From contig JAFXMP010000179.1 of the NCBI GenBank assembly GCA_017530275.1, positions 1 to 23,997 on the forward strand: a DNA stretch of 23,997 nucleotides, in the 5' to 3' direction. Every line of letters starts with the position of its first letter. Within the stretch, counting starts at the first letter, position 1. The notes under the pieces are model-generated. The model did no database searches, was not told where the DNA came from, and saw only the letters and a program-made list of their open reading frames with translations. Below are positions 675-23,997 of the stretch, one piece after another. The translations under genes were made by a program, and so were the position numbers. This stretch comes from Clostridia bacterium. GTDB taxonomy: Bacteria > Bacillota_A > Clostridia > Christensenellales > Aristaeellaceae.

Positions 675-3600
675 TTACTTGCCGATCGTCAGGATGGGAT
701 TGTGGGGAGCGGGTGCGCCGTCCATATCGAAGGGCGCGTACTGGAATACGATCTCCGTTTCGCCGGTGAGACCGTTCAGATATTCCGCCTTGAGGGTGAT
801 GGTATCGCCCTCCAGGATGTAATCCTGATCCGGGGCCAGGGTGTATTCGCCGTTCACGATGGAAGCAAAGCCATAATCGCCGTCTTTCTTGGTCACGACG
901 ATATCGCCGTTTTCATTGGGCGCGCCTGCTTCGATGCCGGGCTGCACCAGCATGAACCGGCTGGTGATCTCGGTACCGTCGGCGCTCAATTCAGAAAGCA
1001 GGGCGTTGAATTCCTCTTCCGTCAGCTCCGGCATGTCGGGCACGTCCACATCCCGCAGGGCCTTGAACTTGTGATCCTGCACCGTGACCATCATGGGCCA
1101 GTATTCGCTGCCGTTGATGACGACCAGCTCATATTCGCCGTCCTCGATCTCAGCCAGGAATTCGTCGGTGAATTCGATGACGAAGCTCTTGGTTTCCGTC
1201 TTTTTATAGGTATACTTGGTGCCGGCGTTTTTGATCACCTCATCGAAGCCCTTCTGCACCTCGTCCCTGAAGCGCACGCCGCCGTCCCTCTGCATATTGC
1301 CGTTGACGTGGATGCCGTTTTCCATATCGGTGATGGTCACGTTGCCGGATTCGATCAGGTACTGGCCGCCCATCTTGCCGACGGAGGTGGCCACGGTGAA
1401 GATTTCGCCGCCCAGGGAAGCGCCGCAGCGCTTGCAGGAGAAGGTGGTGACATACACCTGCATTTCGATGGGCCTGCCGTCCTTGCCCACCGCGGTGCGG
1501 GTCCTGCCATGGGAAGCGGTGCTGCTGACTACCTTATGGCCCAGGGCGGGGATGGTGTCGTAGCCGGTTTTACCGTCCTGCGTCGCGGGGCAGTAAATGC
1601 ACTTTTCGCCGTTATACTGGCCGTCTTTGGTGCAGGTGGGCTCCAGCGAAGCCACGGGCTCGAAATGGTGCTTTCCATCTGGGCTCAAGGTTTTCAGGAT
1701 TTCCGTTTCGTCCAGATCGCCGCGGGTGCACTTTCTGTGAATAAAGCCTTCGGTTTCGCAGGTGGCGTCCACCTTCTCCACGATCTCGATGTCATGGCCC
1801 AGAGGCTGGATGGCGTCGCCGAAGACCTGCTTGCAGATGGTGCACTGATAGGCTTCCTTGCCGAACTCGGTGCAGGTGGGCTCGATGTCGCCCTCCGGAT
1901 AGCGCACCTGGTTATGGTGTAGCTCCGTCACCCGGCGCAGATGCGCGCCGCAGTCCACGCAGTACGCTTCCTCGATGCGGGGCTGGCTGGGATTCTCGCA
2001 TTCGCCCGCCTGGACCACGGGAATGGTACCGAAGTGGTGGCCCGTTTTGTTGGCGGAATCGGGCACGCCGCAGCGGGCGCACAGCTTGCAGTGGGTGCCC
2101 TGGCCCGGATCGGTCACCAGGGTGGGGCCGTAGTTCCACCATTTGCCGTTTTCAAAGTCGTGGCCCAGGGGCAGCACCTTGTCGGCTTCCGCTTTCCCAG
2201 CCTCTACCAGCTTTTGCAGCTCGCTCATGGGCATATCATAGCTGGTATATTTGCAGGTGGGGCAGTAAGCTTCCACGGAAGCGGGCTGGTTGCAGGTGTT
2301 CTCCCGCCTAATGGTGATGTTTTCCCAGTCGTGATCCAGTTCGACGACGTAGACGCAGTGATGGCATATTTTGCTGTGCTTTGCCCCTGCGTAAATCCAA
2401 TCGCCAAATTCATGATTGGGCGTTTCCTCCGCGCCGCAGCGGACGCAGACCCGGATGCAGTGTTCCTCATCCAGCTTATCCCACTTGCTCCAGTTGTGGC
2501 CTACTTCGGCACAGGTGGCGTTGTAGGGCGTAGGATCGGGGGTAACCGCCACGGGTGTGGGTTCCGTCGTGGGACCGGGGGTTTCGACGACGACCACTTG
2601 CTCCGTAGGCGCGGTGGTGGGTTCGGGGGAAGCGTCATCGGGCTTGGCCAGGGGCACCCACTCGCTCCAGTCGCACTTGCTGCAGGTATCCGTGCGGCCA
2701 TAATGACTTTCCGAAATTTGACCCGGTTTGCCTTCCACTATATCATGGGCCAGGATTTCGCCGATTTCTTGCTTGCAGATTTCGCATACCGCTTTATGGC
2801 CTTGCATTCCGTAGCTGGTGTAGGTGACCCCGGCGTCATGGATGCACTCGCTTGATATCATACTGGCAAACGGACATTTGCTGCATGTATCGGTGGTCAC
2901 GCGGTAATGGTCTGAAATGGTCACCGTGGTCACCAAATCATGGGGTTCCATCTCGCCGATATACTGCTTGCAGTCCGGGCAGTACATTTGGTGCATGGAC
3001 GCTCCCAAGCTCTCGAGTTTGGCGTTGGGATGGGTGCAGTCCCCGCTGATCTTGAATTCCTTCCGTTTTTCTCCGATGGACACGCCGTCCAGGGGCTTGA
3101 TGATGATGACGCCAGTGCCGGGCTTATCGTTGTTTTCGTATTCCACGGTATAGTCCTGACCCTTGATCAGCTCTCTGCCATACAGCGTGACGTTTTCTTC
3201 CGGCGTTACCGGTTTGCCGTCGTATTTCTGATCGGGAATATCGGCGATTTTCGCGTCGCTCAGTTTTTTCGGACGGGGCAGGGTCACCCAGGCGGAATAG
3301 CCGCACTGAGAGCAAGTCTCATATCGTCCATATTCCAACTCGTTTCTGTAGAATGCCTTGCCTTCCACTATCTGATGGGGCAGGGGGCCGCTGATATCCG
3401 TATGGCAGATATTGCATTCTATATGGTGGGTGCCTTTCATATACTTGTCGGTCGAGGCGTCGTTGACATAAGTGACCTCGCCGTCGTGGCGGCACATTTC
3501 TCTTCTGTCATGATAATTGCACTCGCTGCATGTATCGGTGATAATCTGGTAATGGCCTTCCGTGGTTTCCGTGGTTTGGATATTATGGGATTCCGGTTCG

Positions 3601-4685
3601 CCAAGATACTGCTTGCAGTCGGGGCAGTACAGTTGGTGCTGCGCCATGTTAATAGATAGTTTTTTTGCATGGCGATGGTTGCAGTCAGGGGCGGTGATCA
3701 CAAATTCCTTCCGTATTTCGCCGGTGGATACGCCGTCCACGGGCTTGATGATCACCACGCCGGTGCCGGGCCCGTCGTTGTTTTCATATTCCACGGTATA
3801 GTCCTGGCTCCCGGTCAGGTTTTCGCCGTCCAGGATGACGGTGACGTCCGGCGTTACCGGCCCGCCATTGTATTCCTGATCGGGGATTTCGCCCACTTCC
3901 GCCTTGTTCAGGTCCTTCGGCAGAGGCAGAGTAACCCAGGCGCTGTAGCTGCACTTGGTGCAGGCCTCGTAGCAGCCATAATCTGTCGGCGTTCTGAAGA
4001 AAGCTTTGCCTTGTTCCGTCTCATGGGCCAGGCTGACCCCATAGATATTCTCATGGCAGATATTGCATTCCTCGTGGTGGCCCAACAGGCCGTCGTTGAC
4101 CATAGTGGTCCCGCCGTCGTGGGGGCACTCGCTTGACTCATGCTTCTTCATATGATTGCATTTGCCGCAGTAATCAACCAACGTGCCCGCTGGGAAATTG
4201 GGATCGCCTTCGGATGCCGGGAAGGTCTGAAAATCGTGCGGTTCTTCCTCGGTCACTTCTTTTTCACACACGCCGCAGGTATACGTTGTAACATGCGTAT
4301 TGTCGTCCTTAGGCAGGCAGCTCTGCCGAATCAACTTGTCTTTGGGATGGGTACATTCCTGACTGCTGTTAGATGGCATTTCAACATTACATTTGTCGCA
4401 TTTTCCATCGTCGTCATTATCTGCGCAGGTCTGCCGTGTGCAAAACTGCGCTCCGCAGGTACATTCCAGTACGTTAATGTGCGTACCGGGGTTGTTTCCG
4501 TCATCCGGGAAGTCGCCAAGCGTTTTGACCTTTTCAGACGGATGCGAGCAGCTGGAATCGCCGCCGAGCCACGTCCCAAAGTCAGATTCCCGCATCATAG
4601 CCAGTGCGCTTATGGTGACGAGCACGAGGCACAGTGCCATCACCGCCACAAATGCCAGCCATTTCCAGAGAGTTCTTGATTTCAT
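675..4685 (-). CDS. Large secreted cysteine-rich repeat protein (CxxC modules, YDG/NN Ig-like repeats, X2-like C-terminus)
   Basis: The product has 1336 residues. I chose the ATG at 4685 because an AAAGGAG ribosome site lies 9 nt upstream and the protein then begins with a classical signal peptide (MKSR, then a hydrophobic stretch to about residue 30); a longer in-frame start at 4757 would run through that ribosome site. Dozens of CxxC pairs with nearby His-Asp/Glu occur, suggesting many small zinc-ribbon or disulfide modules. Residues about 187-397 and 398-613 form a tandem duplication of about 213 residues, with a third partial copy to about 682. Each full copy carries one YNG/YDG...DYTVEYENND...GTG repeat typical of Bacillota surface proteins. 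A Pro/Thr-rich linker (about 685-720), more CxxC modules and an X2-like Ig domain at the C-terminus follow. No LPxTG or other anchor is visible. Likely an extracellular or wall-associated protein; ligand unknown. A LytTR-type site lies upstream. Confidence 0.85.
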   Translation of the reverse strand: MKSRTLWKWLAFVAVMALCLVLVTISALAMMRESDFGTWLGGDSSCSHPSEKVKTLGDFPDDGNNPGTHINVLECTCGAQFCTRQTCADNDDDGKCDKCNVEMPSNSSQECTHPKDKLIRQSCLPKDDNTHVTTYTCGVCEKEVTEEEPHDFQTFPASEGDPNFPAGTLVDYCGKCNHMKKHESSECPHDGGTTMVNDGLLGHHEECNICHENIYGVSLAHETEQGKAFFRTPTDYGCYEACTKCSYSAWVTLPLPKDLNKAEVGEIPDQEYNGGPVTPDVTVILDGENLTGSQDYTVEYENNDGPGTGVVIIKPVDGVSTGEIRKEFVITAPDCNHRHAKKLSINMAQHQLYCPDCKQYLGEPESHNIQTTETTEGHYQIITDTCSECNYHDRREMCRHDGEVTYVNDASTDKYMKGTHHIECNICHTDISGPLPHQIVEGKAFYRNELEYGRYETCSQCGYSAWVTLPRPKKLSDAKIADIPDQKYDGKPVTPEENVTLYGRELIKGQDYTVEYENNDKPGTGVIIIKPLDGVSIGEKRKEFKISGDCTHPNAKLESLGASMHQMYCPDCKQYIGEMEPHDLVTTVTISDHYRVTTDTCSKCPFASMISSECIHDAGVTYTSYGMQGHKAVCEICKQEIGEILAHDIVEGKPGQISESHYGRTDTCSKCDWSEWVPLAKPDDASPEPTTAPTEQVVVVETPGPTTEPTPVAVTPDPTPYNATCAEVGHNWSKWDKLDEEHCIRVCVRCGAEETPNHEFGDWIYAGAKHSKICHHCVYVVELDHDWENITIRRENTCNQPASVEAYCPTCKYTSYDMPMSELQKLVEAGKAEADKVLPLGHDFENGKWWNYGPTLVTDPGQGTHCKLCARCGVPDSANKTGHHFGTIPVVQAGECENPSQPRIEEAYCVDCGAHLRRVTELHHNQVRYPEGDIEPTCTEFGKEAYQCTICKQVFGDAIQPLGHDIEIVEKVDATCETEGFIHRKCTRGDLDETEILKTLSPDGKHHFEPVASLEPTCTKDGQYNGEKCIYCPATQDGKTGYDTIPALGHKVVSSTASHGRTRTAVGKDGRPIEMQVYVTTFSCKRCGASLGGEIFTVATSVGKMGGQYLIESGNVTITDMENGIHVNGNMQRDGGVRFRDEVQKGFDEVIKNAGTKYTYKKTETKSFVIEFTDEFLAEIEDGEYELVVINGSEYWPMMVTVQDHKFKALRDVDVPDMPELTEEEFNALLSELSADGTEITSRFMLVQPGIEAGAPNENGDIVVTKKDGDYGFASIVNGEYTLAPDQDYILEGDTITLKAEYLNGLTGETEIVFQYAPFDMDGAPAPHNPILTIGK

Positions 4686-4852
4686 GATGGAATTCTCCTT
4701 TCCTTGTTCAAAGTGCCTTTTCCCTTTTTGAACGGTACCTGTGTCAGGCCCGATCATTCACTTCCTGATGGTTTTACTTCCACTCGTTTTGTTTCATGAC
4801 GTTCACACGCTCCTTATAAAGAACTTGGCAGAATCGCTGAAAATAAAATACC

Positions 4853-4885
4853 AAAAAATGGCCCGAAAGTACAGGCTTTCGGGCC
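4853..4885 (-). terminator. Rho-independent terminator after the LytTR-DUF3021 operon
   Basis: Read on the minus strand there is a perfect 10-bp stem GGCCCGAAAG / CTTTCGGGCC with a 6-nt loop, followed by ATTTTTT. It lies 45-77 nt beyond the DUF3021 stop codon. Its distal edge touches the twin-box site at 4884-4913, so the terminator of the upstream operon sits where the promoter of the Cys-rich gene would be expected. Confidence 0.85.
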
Positions 4886-4913
4886 GAACGGTCGTTTTGA
4901 GGGGCTGAACGGT
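4884..4913 (-). promoter_or_regulatory. LytTR-type twin-box binding site upstream of the Cys-rich protein gene
   Basis: Two direct GAACGGT boxes (ACCGTTC on the minus strand) at 4886-4892 and 4907-4913 are spaced exactly 21 bp start to start, that is, two helical turns. LytTR regulators are known to bind paired direct repeats of about 9 bp around a GTT core with 12-13 bp between. The same arrangement with the same flanks (CCGAACGGTC then TTTT) occurs at 6028-6057 ahead of the LytTR gene. A possible -10 (TATTTT at 4845-4850) lies downstream on the minus strand. The site is about 200 bp upstream of the start at 4685. Binding is inferred, not shown. Confidence 0.75.
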
Positions 4914-4929
4914 TTTATTGTTTTTACTT

Positions 4930-5391
4930 TTATGGCTCACGCGGCCGCCGCGCCTTCCATTGGCGCAGTTTGGCGTTCATTTTTTTCACCTGCCTGCGGG
5001 AGGAAACGTACTGCACAAGCCAGATCAAAGCGTAAACGAGCACGAACGTGCCGCCGATCAGCGCGCAAAAGCCCAGCGGCGGCATGTCCATCCAGCCCAG
5101 GGCGATCATCGTGCCGAAAAACACGATGGTGCTGCCCACGGAAATCAGGAAATGCGTAAGCGTGCAGCGCAGGATGCTCCACGCGTCGATGCCGTACAGG
5201 GCGGAGGTGCCCATGTTCACCGCGCCGTACAGGCCGGAGAGGAAAAAGTACAGGATCAGAGTCCCGCGGTTTTCCTCCCGGGAAAGAAAAGCTTCCGGCT
5301 CCAGCAGGGCGTAGAACACGAAGGCCACCGCGATACCCGCGGCAAAGCCCGCCAGGCTGAACACAATCGCCTTTTTTCGTAAGTCCTTCAT
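4930..5391 (-). CDS. DUF3021-family integral membrane protein
   Basis: A 153-residue protein with four hydrophobic segments (about residues 8-28, 44-64, 78-104 and 108-130) and a basic C-terminal tail. Size, topology and its place directly after a LytTR gene fit the DUF3021 family, which in Bacillota is commonly co-transcribed with a LytTR-only regulator and is thought to control it at the membrane. The start codon overlaps the LytTR stop codon as ATGA (5388-5391), which implies translational coupling. The exact role of the family is not established. An inhibitory membrane partner of the regulator is the likely function by analogy with known LytTR regulator/inhibitor pairs. Confidence 0.82.
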   Translation of the reverse strand: MKDLRKKAIVFSLAGFAAGIAVAFVFYALLEPEAFLSREENRGTLILYFFLSGLYGAVNMGTSALYGIDAWSILRCTLTHFLISVGSTIVFFGTMIALGWMDMPPLGFCALIGGTFVLVYALIWLVQYVSSRRQVKKMNAKLRQWKARRPREP

Positions 5392-5876
5392 AAGCTATCC
5401 CCTTCTTTGCCTGCCAGCATCGTCAGCCGCTCCTGGATGGCGCGCACAAACCGCCGGGCCACCCAGGTGACGCTGCCGTTTTCAAAAACCACTTGAATGG
5501 TGCCCGCCATGCTCAGATCAAAGCTGGCGATCCAATCGATGTTGATGATCTCAAACCGGCTGATGCGCACAAAGCGGTCCGGCGACAGCTTTTCTTCCAG
5601 TTCCTGCAGGGAACAGCGCGCCTCATATTCATCCGATTCCGTGCAGACGATCAGCCTGCGCAGTTCCGTGTGCACGCGGATGATGTTCTCCTGGTGCAGG
5701 AAGCTTCTGCTGCTGCCTTTGAACACCATGATCGGGGAGCTTTCCTCTTCCGCGCATCGTTCCACCGCGGACGCGATCCGGTCTGTGAGCGCCGTTTTCC
5801 TGCTGGCGCGAATGATCACTTCCGGCGCGCCGCACGCGGGATCAAGCTCAAACCGGACGGTAATCTTTTTTTTCAT
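5388..5876 (-). CDS. LytTR-domain DNA-binding transcriptional regulator
   Basis: The product is 162 residues starting at ATG 5876, preceded by GGTGGAAAG; an upstream in-frame start would add 26 atypical residues. There is no receiver domain: the N-terminal about 55 residues form a short alpha/beta region and the rest (about 60-155) is a LytTR DNA-binding domain, with the expected core features SLQELEEKLSPDRFVRISR, a following INIDWI and a late RRFV segment. It is the first gene of a coupled pair with the DUF3021 membrane protein. A LytTR-type twin box at 6028-6057 upstream suggests autoregulation, and an identical arrangement upstream of the Cys-rich secreted protein gene suggests that gene is a target. 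Without a receiver domain, activity is probably set by the membrane partner rather than by phosphorylation. Confidence 0.88.
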   Translation of the reverse strand: MKKKITVRFELDPACGAPEVIIRASRKTALTDRIASAVERCAEEESSPIMVFKGSSRSFLHQENIIRVHTELRRLIVCTESDEYEARCSLQELEEKLSPDRFVRISRFEIINIDWIASFDLSMAGTIQVVFENGSVTWVARRFVRAIQERLTMLAGKEGDSL

Positions 5877-5993
5877 GATTTCTTTCCACCATTTTGCGTT
5901 TTCAGTTTGGCGGACGCGAACGAATAGGGGGGCCGCTTTGCCAAACGATCCCAAGACGAGAAATCAAAAATCAAAAAATTACAAACTCATCTT

Positions 5994-6022
5994 AGCATAA
6001 CAGCCTCCGAAAAGAAATATTA
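5994..6022 (-). promoter_or_regulatory. Candidate promoter of the LytTR-DUF3021 operon
   Basis: On the minus strand a TATGCT -10 (5994-5999) is preceded at 17 bp by a poor -35 (TAATAT, 6017-6022). The proximal LytTR box ends 8 bp upstream of this -35. A weak -35 next to an activator site is the usual arrangement for activator-dependent promoters. Inferred from sequence only. Confidence 0.5.
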
Positions 6023-6027
6023 CAGAA

Positions 6028-6057
6028 CCGAACGGTCATTTTTCGCGCGTGAACGGT
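6028..6057 (-). promoter_or_regulatory. LytTR-type twin-box binding site upstream of the LytTR gene
   Basis: GAACGGT boxes at 6030-6036 and 6051-6057 are 21 bp apart, in the same orientation and spacing as the pair at 4886-4913, and share the flanks CCGAACGGTC and a TTTT spacer start. The site is about 150 bp upstream of the LytTR start codon and just upstream of a weak promoter, which suggests positive autoregulation. Confidence 0.75.
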
Positions 6058-6187
6058 GCGGAAGGGGGACGGGGGGGAAAAAATCCCAGGCTTTCTATGG
6101 GCCAGAAGCCCTCAAACTTTCGTAACCCCAGCACGACAAGCGAAAGCTGTGAATTCTTCCCAACCAACTAACTTCGCTTAACAGGGT

Positions 6188-6240
6188 CCAGGGGCCGAAG
6201 GTCCCTGGTTCAGGGGTTTAGGGGGCCGAAGAGGCCCCCT
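6188..6240. repeat. Two GC-rich intergenic hairpins with GAA/TTC loops
   Basis: The first hairpin (6188-6208) pairs CCAGGG with CCCTGG around a GCCGAAGGT centre. The second (6220-6240) pairs AGGGGGCC with GGCCCCCT around GAAGA. They lie just beyond the YitT stop on the minus strand but have no T-run, so they are not classical terminators. On the minus strand the first closes with a C(TTCG)G tetraloop, like several hairpins of the array at 23655-23997. The rest of 6061-6187 shows nothing I can assign. Confidence 0.5.
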
Positions 6241-6250
6241 GCCTCGTCCT

Positions 6251-7129
6251 TCATTCGCTCATGCCCCGGAATCCCTTTCCCACGATTTCGCTGGAGGAGG
6301 TGATGGTTATGAAGGAATGGGGGTCGGTGGCGCGGACGAACAACTGCAAGCGAATGGCCTGGGAGCGGTTGATGACGGTCATGATGATCTTGCGGTCTTC
6401 ATGGGTGAAGCTGCCCCTGCCGTCCATTACGGTGGCGCTGTGGTGCAGGTTTTCCATAATGAATTTGCAGATGGGGTCGGGGTTGTCGGTAATGATCTGG
6501 AACACCTTGTAGGTACGCAGGTTGTCCATCACCGCGTCCACCATGTAGGATTTGAGGAACAGGCCGAACAGGGAGAAAAGCCCCGTTTCCATGCCGAAGG
6601 CGAAGCACGCGCCGATGGCCACGATCAGGTCGGCGATGCCCAGGGCCAGGCCGATGTTCATGTGGGAATACTTTTTCACCAGCATGGCGATGATGTCGGT
6701 ACCGCCGGAGGACGCGTCCACGTTAAACAGAATGGCGGAGCCCACGGCGGGCAGGCCCACGGCGAACATGAGCTCCAGCACCGGCTGGCTGGTCATAGGC
6801 GCGGACATGGGGATCAGCCTTTCCAACAGCCATGTCAGCCCCGAGGATACCAGGGCGGAATAAGCCGTTTTCGCCCCAAAGCCCTTTCCTATGAAAGCCG
6901 CGCCGACGATCAAAAGCACGATGTTCAGGATCAGGTTCAGGGTGGCGGTGGTCAGGTCGGGGATGTAGTGGGCTGCCAGGATGGAAATACCGCTGACGCC
7001 GCCGGTAGTGAAGTGGTTGGGAAATTTGAAAAAATACACGCCCAGGGCCAGGATCACGGTGCCTAAGTTCAGCCAGCCGAACTGCTTCCACCAGTCCGGG
7101 GTGAACAGCTTCGCGTTTTGCTTGTCCAT
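6251..7129 (-). CDS. YitT-family membrane protein (DUF161 + DUF2179)
   Basis: The product has 292 residues. The start at 7129 is preferred because it overlaps the stop of the upstream esterase gene as TAATG, indicating coupling; a longer frame has a poorer context. The N-terminal about 200 residues hold five or six membrane segments, including the conserved motif FPNHFTTGGVSGIS near residue 36 and DASSGGTDIIAM near residue 140, both typical of the YitT/DUF161 family. The C-terminal about 80 residues (from YKVFQIIT) form the soluble DUF2179 domain, with the usual TYMDGRGSFT-like element (here TVMDGRGSFT). Members are conserved Bacillota membrane proteins whose transported substrate is not firmly known. 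Confidence 0.9.
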   Translation of the reverse strand: MDKQNAKLFTPDWWKQFGWLNLGTVILALGVYFFKFPNHFTTGGVSGISILAAHYIPDLTTATLNLILNIVLLIVGAAFIGKGFGAKTAYSALVSSGLTWLLERLIPMSAPMTSQPVLELMFAVGLPAVGSAILFNVDASSGGTDIIAMLVKKYSHMNIGLALGIADLIVAIGACFAFGMETGLFSLFGLFLKSYMVDAVMDNLRTYKVFQIITDNPDPICKFIMENLHHSATVMDGRGSFTHEDRKIIMTVINRSQAIRLQLFVRATDPHSFITITSSSEIVGKGFRGMSE

Positions 7130-15157: not shown

Positions 15158-15185
15158 ACATGTTTGCGTGAAAGCGCAAAATGCG

Positions 15186-15409
15186 GATGAGCGCACAGGC
15201 GCAGCCGTGGCGCGTCCCGCCGCTTCCGCATGGAATAAGCGGCGGGCATCGAAAAAGAAAGATGAGCGCACGGGCGAAGCCGTGGCGCGTCCCGCCGCTT
15301 CCGCATGGAAAAGCGGCGGGCATCGAAAAAGAAAGATGAGCGCACGGGCGAAGCCGTGGCGCGTCCCGCCGCTTCCGCATGGAATAAGCGGCGGGCATCC
15401 AAAAGAAAG
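15186..15409 (+). repeat. Three tandem 74-75-bp repeats, each with hairpins, in the leader of the PII-like gene
   Basis: Copies begin at 15186, 15261 and 15335 (each at GATGAGCGCAC) and are 75, 74 and about 75 bp. Copies 2 and 3 differ at very few positions; copy 1 has two extra substitutions near its start. Each copy contains a perfect 10-bp stem CCCGCCGCTT / AAGCGGCGGG (5' arm slightly shortened by the one-base deletion in copy 2) and a second imperfect stem GCGCACGG / CCGTGGCGC. The array ends about 10 bp before the start codon of the PII-like gene, so it lies in the transcribed leader. The 74-bp copy would break any reading frame through it. Confidence 0.9.
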
Positions 15410-15419
15410 GAAGAGAATC

Positions 15420-23019: not shown

Positions 23020-23108
23020 GGAGGGATGGCCGAGTGGTTGATGGCGCTGGTCTTGAAAACCAGTGATGCTGAAAAGCACCGGGGGTTCGAATCCCTCTCT
23101 CTCCGCCA
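23020..23108 (+). tRNA. tRNA-Ser, anticodon UGA
   Basis: A class II tRNA with long variable arm. The acceptor GGAGGGA pairs with TCTCTCC (one G-T pair). The anticodon stem CTGGT...ACCAG encloses a loop with TGA. The T arm holds GGTTCGAATCC, and the CCA end is encoded. TGA reads UCA and other UCN codons as serine. Confidence 0.95.
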
Positions 23109-23131
23109 TTTTGTGCATTTACCGACCAAAT

Positions 23132-23223
23132 GGAGAAGTACCCAAGTGGCCGAAGGGGCTCCCCTGCTAAGGGAGTAGTACGAGTGAATCGTAGCGAGAG
23201 TTCAAATCTCTCCTTCTCCGCCA
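23132..23223 (+). tRNA. tRNA-Ser, anticodon GCU
   Basis: A class II tRNA: acceptor GGAGAAG pairs perfectly with CTTCTCC, the anticodon stem CTCCC/GGGAG encloses CTGCTAA (anticodon GCT), and there is a long variable arm, a GTTCAAATC T loop and an encoded CCA. It reads AGU/AGC serine codons and lies 23 bp after the first tRNA-Ser, probably on one transcript. Confidence 0.95.
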
Positions 23224-23638: not shown

Positions 23639-23654
23639 ATACCCTCCTCGGCAC

Positions 23655-23997
23655 CAGCCCCATAGGGGCTGACGCATCATGGCGAAGGTGACGCCAGCCC
23701 CATAGGGGCTGATGGTGACGGAGGTGACACAACGCCAACCCCGAAGGGGTTGAGGGTTGCGCCCAGGAGAGCGAGGCCAGCCCCGAAGGGGCTGATGGTG
23801 GATCGGACAGCCTGGCCGGAGCCGACAGCCAGCCCCATAGGGGCTGACGGTGGGGGCTGGGAGCTGGGGCAGCGGGGTCGCCAACCCCGAAGGGGTTGAG
23901 GGTTGCGCCCAGGAGAGCGAGGCCAGCCCCGAAGGGGCTGATGGTGGATCGGACAGCCTGGCCGGAGCCGACAGCCAGCCCCATAGGGGCTGACGGT
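23655..23997. repeat. Array of eight 17-nt palindromes inside a larger direct repeat, running off the window edge
   Basis: Palindromes start at 23655, 23695, 23736, 23778, 23830, 23882, 23924 and 23976. Three variants occur: CAGCCCCATAGGGGCTG (1, 2, 5, 8), CAACCCCGAAGGGGTTG (3, 6) and CAGCCCCGAAGGGGCTG (4, 7). Start-to-start spacing is 40-52 bp. The 119 bp at 23733-23851 recur identically at 23879-23997, a period of 146 bp. On the minus strand the GAA variants read C(TTCG)G tetraloops. The unequal short spacers and short repeats do not fit CRISPR. No gene is supported: frames that cross the array give PLWGW-type peptides in shifting phases. Confidence 0.9.

Follow-up and report, generated by a model that had tools for sequence, protein, structure and literature searches.

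The locus studied here raises the question of which genes a LytTR regulator and its DUF3021 membrane partner control, and through what arrangement of DNA signals such control could be exerted. Within the 23,997-nt stretch of DNA that was analysed, hereafter the window, the two genes form a minus-strand operon ahead of an open reading frame for a 1336-aa protein (Table 1). An earlier note on this DNA had described matching twin-box sites at two places in this region. The pairing of the boxes, their 21-bp period, the flank, the orientation and the coordinates all proved exact, and the sites are placed as described, with site B ahead of the LytTR gene and site A ahead of the gene for the 1336-aa protein.

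Table 1. Features of the LytTR/DUF3021 locus and its predicted target gene, in window coordinates
Feature	Position	Strand	Description
Predicted target gene, 1336-aa protein	675..4685	-	ORF; signal/anchor N-terminus, 65 Cys, CBM_X2; alternative upstream start at 4757
Lone fifth box, GAACGGT on +	4730..4736	-	In leader of secreted gene; without exact partner 21 bp away
Site A -10-like hexamer TATTTT	4845..4850	-	4/6 to TATAAT; TGG ahead; 17 nt from -35 position
Terminator-like hairpin after LytTR-DUF3021 operon	4860..4885	-	10-bp stem, 6-nt loop, T6 at 4858-4853
Site A, twin LytTR boxes	4884..4913	-	ACCGTTCAG-12-ACCGTTCGG; 17 nt past DUF3021 end
DUF3021 membrane protein, 153 aa	4930..5391	-	PF11457, E 1.4e-20; putative LRS membrane inhibitor
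LytTR regulator, 162 aa	5388..5876	-	PF04397, E 9.6e-19; 4-nt overlap with DUF3021
Site B promoter-like stretch	5989..6017	-	-35 position TTTCTT at 6017-6012, 17-nt spacer, -10 TAAGAT at 5994-5989
Site B, twin LytTR boxes	6028..6057	-	ACCGTTCAC-12-ACCGTTCGG; 10 bp ahead of LytTR operon -35 position

By analysis with Pfam, PF04397 is the only domain in the window LytTR protein, and no receiver domain was found. Residues 102-108 of this protein read FVRISRF, in which the F-h-R-h-x-R portion of the conserved LytTR motif FhRhHRS (as cited in the accessible part of PMC4227749) is kept, with H replaced by S and S by F; all seven residues are invariant across 20 aligned sequences that include the one from the window. 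The aligned partner proteins all match DUF3021 in Pfam (26/26). The 1336-aa protein was called secreted-type from its hydrophobic N-terminus, and its sole Pfam match is a CBM_X2 domain (residues 1260-1316, E 2.8e-9). When plasmid records were searched for the LytTR protein, 26 of 72,556 contained a match, each of them below 60% identity and the best-ranked at 34%.

Elsewhere in the window, three tandem repeats with a period of ∼75 nt (15175-15415) lie upstream of a Na/H exchanger-type gene, and a region at 23650-23946 contains seven 28-nt palindromic repeats, with the core CCAGCCCCATAGGGGCTG or variants of it, spaced 40-52 nt apart. The latter region also holds a perfect 119-nt duplication, with a separation of 146 nt, that runs to the window end. 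The only matches to Rfam at gathering scores in the whole window are two tRNAs, a tRNA-Ser pair in adjacent positions at 23020-23223 with anticodons TGA and GCT.

The LytTR and DUF3021 genes constitute a LytTR Regulatory System (LRS), a class whose regulators are not known to have a receiver domain. The description of such a pair as an orphan system does not stand, since the class was described in 2018 (PMC6193735). As set out in the available portion of that description, the gene for a soluble LytTR regulator comes first in an LRS and is followed directly by one for a small membrane protein, mostly of the DUF3021 or DUF2154 type; the regulator binds 9-bp direct repeats that are 11-13 bp apart (mostly 12) with a strong bias to a position 10 bp ahead of the -35 element, and it is inhibited by the membrane protein, with positive feedback when the latter is removed (PMC6193735). 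According to the same portion, the Streptococcus mutans systems were the only characterised LRS as of 2018 (PMC6193735). The window locus resembles HdrRM, BrsRM and their relatives in having the regulator gene first, a small membrane protein as partner, the same repeat spacing and the same distance to the -35 position. Class membership and the autoregulatory site are thus features that are already known and not new.

The S. aureus (Staphylococcus aureus) regulator AgrA carries a receiver domain and is paired with a kinase, whereas the window LytTR protein is without a receiver domain by Pfam. The corresponding LytTR motif is FFRCHNS in AgrA and FVRISRF in the window. In other respects the window sites are like the AgrA-dependent P2 and P3 promoters, which, in the accessible part of PMC4227749, combine a LytTR-domain regulator with two upstream direct repeats and a non-optimal core promoter; the AgrA repeats centre near -60, and the window distances agree with this value (PMC4227749).

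Sites A and B each contain two GAACGGT boxes with a 21-bp period, share a CCGAACGGTC flank and lie on one strand; the box sequences in Table 1 are given as read on the minus strand, which is the sense of the LytTR, DUF3021 and secreted-protein genes. They are the sole exact GAACGGT pairs in the window, and pairs with up to three mismatches number seven when 1.47 are expected. A 28-bp matrix, built from 26 sites of other genomes with the window excluded, gave scores of 37.4 and 30.5 at the two window sites and 5.6 at the best of all other window positions, and the best score among 400 shuffled windows was 15.9; the training sites had been chosen by eye among the matches listed (for a common spacer or closeness to LytTR), and the window sites were already known at that time. 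A chance likeness of the two pairs might be entertained on the ground that GAACGGT occurs eight times in the window, but the matrix, whose training sites come from other genomes, gave none of the 400 shuffled windows a value approaching those of the two sites, and we find this explanation hardly credible. Raw counts of a simple pattern with one mismatch in 40 genomes (369, compared with 372 for a reversed control) were uninformative and were set aside.

Downstream of the site A boxes the order of elements is 10 bp, the hexamer TGTACT (4873-4868, 3/6 to TTGACA) at the -35 position, 17 nt and the hexamer TATTTT, which lies past the T run. The hairpin starts at box 2 and overlies the -35 position. 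Its computed stability is -19.4 kcal/mol, a value that none of 500 shuffled sequences equalled, and 7 of the 10 pairs in its stem are GC; a GC-rich stem, a T run and a position at the operon end are the makeup of an intrinsic terminator, so we predict that it acts as one. As a target promoter, site A has the repeat and -10 spacing of LRS promoters, but its -10 hexamer is only a 4/6 match and its -35 position is inside the hairpin. Site B has LRS promoter geometry (12-bp spacer, 10 bp to the -35 position) with two weak hexamers, its -10 being a 4/6 match to TATAAT with TG one base ahead. A generic promoter scan found none in 4600-6300.

The distance from the site A box to the ATG of the secreted gene is 200 nt, and this leader contains the lone fifth box. 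In two near relatives (L001 and L002) the corresponding leaders are 193 and 195 nt long, and a perfect TATAAT is present past the hairpin in both; TATAAT-like hexamers occur at the -10 position of site A in many relatives. Among 11 relatives with a site after DUF3021 the leader is 81-128 nt when starts are picked automatically.

Alignment of LytTR homologues led to 50 loci in genome contigs, ten of which were omitted (L036-L040 and L042, in which the match is limited to the C-terminal part, and L046 and L048-L050, from distant Bacilli), leaving 40 relatives that make 41 loci with the window. Boxes lie directly after DUF3021 (score of at least 14, start at most 27 nt from the stop codon) in 19 of the 41 (L001, L002, L003, L005, L006, L007, L011, L012, L013, L017, L018, L019, L020, L021, L028, L030, L041, L045 and the window), and sites farther behind DUF3021 are found at 78 nt in L027, 73 nt in L031 and 361 nt in L010. 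At six of the 41 loci (L008, L015, L025, L032, L033 and L034) a site upstream of LytTR faces a divergent gene. A site directly beside the LytTR/DUF3021 pair that faces a neighbour is thus present at 25/41 loci. No outward site was found near the pair in 13/41, which include L004, whose sequence ends 100 nt after DUF3021, and L029, which has a weak site at the LytTR end and in which DUF3021 was not found. For a close LytTR (L086 in genome G114), no site scoring at least 15 was present in 3.5 kb and none scoring at least 18 in 10 kb (L124).

Sites of the autoregulatory type, facing LytTR, were detected at 5/41 loci by the matrix and at 8/41 by a looser scan (10/12 box letters, with L034 excluded as the mirror of its divergent site), counts to which L006, L014 and L028 contribute short upstream sequence; the one in L043 is 341 nt upstream. 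The earlier note had proposed that the regulator controls both itself and the secreted gene. The first part fits the presence of site B in the window, but this placement is the rarer one in the clade (8/41, compared with 19/41 after DUF3021). The second part fits the LytTR-like character of the sites, the orientation of site A towards the secreted gene and the 25/41 loci with an outward site, which often faces a gene for a secreted protein. In the window clade, then, the commoner site adjoins the terminator that closes the operon and points towards a neighbouring gene, with the upstream site usually missing, whereas the LRS repeats in the accessible part of the class description are upstream of LRS operons and bacteriocin genes, and terminators do not figure in that part (PMC6193735). 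No description of a terminator-nested LytTR/DUF3021 layout was found among the titles and abstract beginnings of the open-access literature, a body of text that leaves most subscription papers outside.

In 10 of 20 sites after DUF3021 (the 19 above and L087), the stop codon and a box overlap by a single base, with which the stop codon ends and the box begins. In a tree built from 40 LytTR rows, the downstream and divergent placements require at least four changes, two of them imposed by branches with good support; the placement labels show no clear clustering (32 of 500 shuffles were as low). L001, L002 and L003 form a group with the window at 94/87 support, a value below the tree's own mark for a firm branch, and all three of these nearest relatives have boxes after DUF3021 together with a hairpin. 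Among 14 loci of a neighbouring LytTR subfamily, two (L187 and L192) have boxes that begin with ACCGAATA, with a similar spacer, upstream of LytTR, and looser cases of this type are seen in L184 and L191. To judge by L187 and L192, changes in the regulator may be accompanied by changes in the box.

When sites were compared by context, a hairpin whose stability exceeds that of 95% of shuffled sequences was present at 17 of the 20 after-DUF3021 sites (the exceptions are L005, L006 and L017) and at one (L025) of eight divergent-facing sites, the latter being the six listed above plus L088 and L089. With automatic gene calls, which miss some genes (the window DUF3021, for example, where an antisense frame wins), the association between hairpin and context was weaker (16/26 compared with 7/35, P 0.0013, with 8 sites uncounted). 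At the upstream sites of L012 and L013 a codirectional gene ends 5 and 21 nt ahead and no hairpin is found, so the hairpin rule is not strict.

The two forms of site also differ in their promoter elements. Across 47 box-matrix sites with a score of at least 23, from which L006, L041 and L068 had been dropped beforehand, a -10 hexamer matching at least 5/6 is at the expected place in 18/22 sites with a hairpin and 14/25 without (shuffled means of 3.0 and 3.1), and TTG is at the -35 place in 1/22 with a hairpin compared with 14/25 without (P 1.5e-4). When the three dropped sites were restored, the -10 counts became 18/24 and 14/26, and a wider set of 62 sites, 15 of them reached via a model that contains the hairpin and the -10, gave the same picture. 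No recognisable -10 was found at L006, L041 or the site before the L026 secreted gene, and both window sites, like several others that match at 4/6 or fewer, are below the 5/6 mark.

In 21 aligned elements, 9 of the 10 stem pairs change on both sides, and the pairing score is 0.421 compared with 0.235 ± 0.027 for shuffled alignments, a score that leans to the hairpin because the sequences were selected for having one and were folded on the model of the window structure. The score is also high (0.366) when the 3' arm is slid by one column, as loop lengths differ. Judged from these sequence comparisons, the nested layout appears to be a variant of the known LRS that recurs with a changing target gene.

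The genome-wide distribution of the 76-nt element was followed with a covariance model (R1). Matches with E ≤0.01 were found in the genomes of 33/40 relatives, at one to four places each, many of these genomes having supplied training sequences. In two family samples searched with stricter filters, 9/397 and 8/200 genomes had a match with E ≤1e-3, and matches with E <1e-8 were confined to five genomes, all of which contain a clade LytTR and all of which are training sources. Within the 200 genomes of the G001 family, R1 matched with E <1e-8 in 4/7 that have a clade LytTR (E <1e-60), those four being training sources, and in 0/193 others; in the G012 family, it matched with E ≤1e-3 in 3/14 genomes with LytTR (E ≤1e-40; one is a training genome) compared with 6/383 without. 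In genome G276 the R1 match and the LytTR gene are on separate contigs. Outside the training set, these sequence searches suggest a weak co-occurrence of R1 and LytTR. The idea of a mobile repeat that copies terminator and boxes around was dropped on finding zero to four R1 matches per genome in 40 genomes, located before differing genes.

Genes for signal-bearing proteins are enriched behind the sites. A signal-like N-terminus was predicted for the products of 26/47 genes there and for 67/464 background frames (odds ratio 7.3, P 1.4e-9), a contrast that may be flattered by the home-made predictor and by a background that includes some targets and perhaps false frames. This target set derives from sites scoring at least 23, with 12 LytTR genes, doubtful frames or proteins of <100 aa omitted, and contains the near-copies L001/L002. 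Pfam matches among 47 proteins of a second list, which overlaps this set, comprise eight receiver domains, four BspA-type LRRs, three Listeria-Bacteroides repeats and two each of AIM24, DUF2225, ABC transporter, CUB, Big_2 and CBM_X2. BspA-like LRR, Listeria-Bacteroides repeat, Big_2, CUB and CBM_X2 modules are thus found in targets of several relatives, whereas the window protein has CBM_X2 only and is otherwise of its own Cys-rich type.

The predicted target in L001/L002 is a 675-aa protein with a signal-like N-terminus, and that in L003 is of the BspA LRR type, with at least 446 aa (the contig ends there) and an N-terminus that is secreted-type by eye. The window protein has at most very weak similarity to the L001 and L003 targets (E 0.009 and 0.18; the L002 target, as a near-copy, was left out of the comparison). 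The element is thus retained in front of different target genes. As to whether boxes and secreted gene stay together in relatives, the element persists in L001, L002 and L003, but the partner gene is not conserved.

Partial relatives of the Cys-rich protein were found in 2/15 genomes, neither with a site directly in front, and the pairing of a site with a window-type Cys-rich protein was not seen in the relatives compared. One of them, in genome G028, is a 566-aa Cys-rich protein (33% identity over 416 columns) whose gene is ∼5 kb from each of the LytTR/DUF3021 pairs of that genome and has its nearest same-strand site ∼3.8 kb upstream, ahead of another gene; the protein is thus not tied to the site everywhere. 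The second LytTR/DUF3021 pair of G028 (L113, 3542-8381), apparent by visible similarity, is ∼12 kb from the first, and it is surrounded by several genes for signal-bearing proteins and by three further sites, of which one is weak. From the sequence arrangement, a single cluster of surface-protein genes seems to be shared by two LRS in this genome.

In Lachnospiraceae, a protein of ∼270 aa that starts with MKLKVLITGKN or similar residues recurs beside the LytTR/DUF3021 pair as its predicted target, and the one scanned singly (L012) has a C-terminal receiver domain. Its gene, grouped by N-terminal similarity, is downstream of DUF3021 in L007, L011, L012, L013, L018 and L019 and divergent in L008 and L015. 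The site is on the side of this gene in every case and in both placements, so it goes with the target. In genome G024 (L170, 5305-13330) two giant signal-bearing genes, of 1488 and 1086 aa, stand in tandem with a hairpin site of their own each; the signal predictor missed the second owing to its start. Taken together, these comparisons support the idea of a regulon, with LytTR binding as a prediction.

Based on the above results, we consider it probable that site A is an activator-dependent target promoter lodged within the terminator of the LytTR-DUF3021 operon, a confidence that was lowered slightly because both window -10 hexamers miss the 5/6 mark. In the proposed mechanism, DUF3021 would keep LytTR inactive until a signal arrives and would then let go of it, and the LytTR activator would bind both twin-box sites. 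At site B it would raise expression of its own operon, and at site A it would switch on the gene for the large secreted Cys-rich protein. There the hairpin would take the place of the -35 element, with the T run in the spacer and the -10 at the ordinary distance for a LytTR promoter. The terminator would insulate the target from operon read-through, and bound LytTR would replace the missing -35 and recruit polymerase.

An alternative is that site A acts on elongation, with LytTR at the terminator edge serving as a roadblock or anti-terminator that sets read-through into the secreted gene. Boxes that abut the hairpin in the 17/20 after-DUF3021 sites are in keeping with this idea, as a simple promoter needs no such contact, and so are the boxes and hairpin without recognisable -10 in L041 and the weak -10 of the window; in another system, AlpA is known, from the accessible part of its description, as a regulator that acts as an antiterminator. 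However, the -10 tends to be at an equal distance from the boxes with or without a hairpin, and divergent-facing sites, where no LytTR-operon transcript arrives, keep the boxes and mostly a -10-like hexamer, which makes elongation control quite unlikely. It is also unlikely that the boxes, while genuine, chiefly serve as binding sites for a different LytTR protein in the cell. Some genomes do have two LytTR/DUF3021 pairs, as in G028, and co-occurrence outside the R1 training set is weak, but the G001 family distribution, although its four matching genomes supplied training sequences, the ACCGAATA boxes in 2/14 neighbouring-subfamily loci and the sharing of the stop codon's last base with a box all argue for a link to the adjoining regulator. 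We regard as very unlikely the view that site A is an evolutionary leftover or a second autoregulatory device and that an unrecognised promoter within the leader drives the secreted gene. The long leader (compared with 81-128 nt in 11 relatives), the lone box and the imperfect -10 of site A would suit it, but the leaders of L001 and L002 are nearly as long and have a perfect TATAAT past the hairpin, and boxes, spacing and hairpin that recur before changing genes are hard to explain in this way.

A further reading is that the nesting is itself a regulatory device, through transcriptional interference, and also a portable output port. Transcripts of the operon would cross the boxes and end at the target -10, so that the activator would be displaced and the target promoter blocked; with a self-activating operon the output would be delayed or pulsed, the sensor pair being made first and the secreted protein once the operon is quiet. 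The absence of an upstream autoregulatory site from most relatives could then reflect a loss that tunes this interference, and any gene placed behind DUF3021 would fall under the control of the membrane sensor. We hold this joint reading tentatively and think it rather unlikely.

With the nested target promoter as the preferred reading, the 76-nt element is a searchable and recurrent one that names its adjoining target, and it would provide a list of predicted targets of LytTR/DUF3021 systems. These predicted targets are rich in signal-bearing proteins and come from rumen and gut Clostridia. The layout would also be a natural case of an activator-dependent promoter with a terminator hairpin in place of its -35 region, making it a compact, insulated genetic part.
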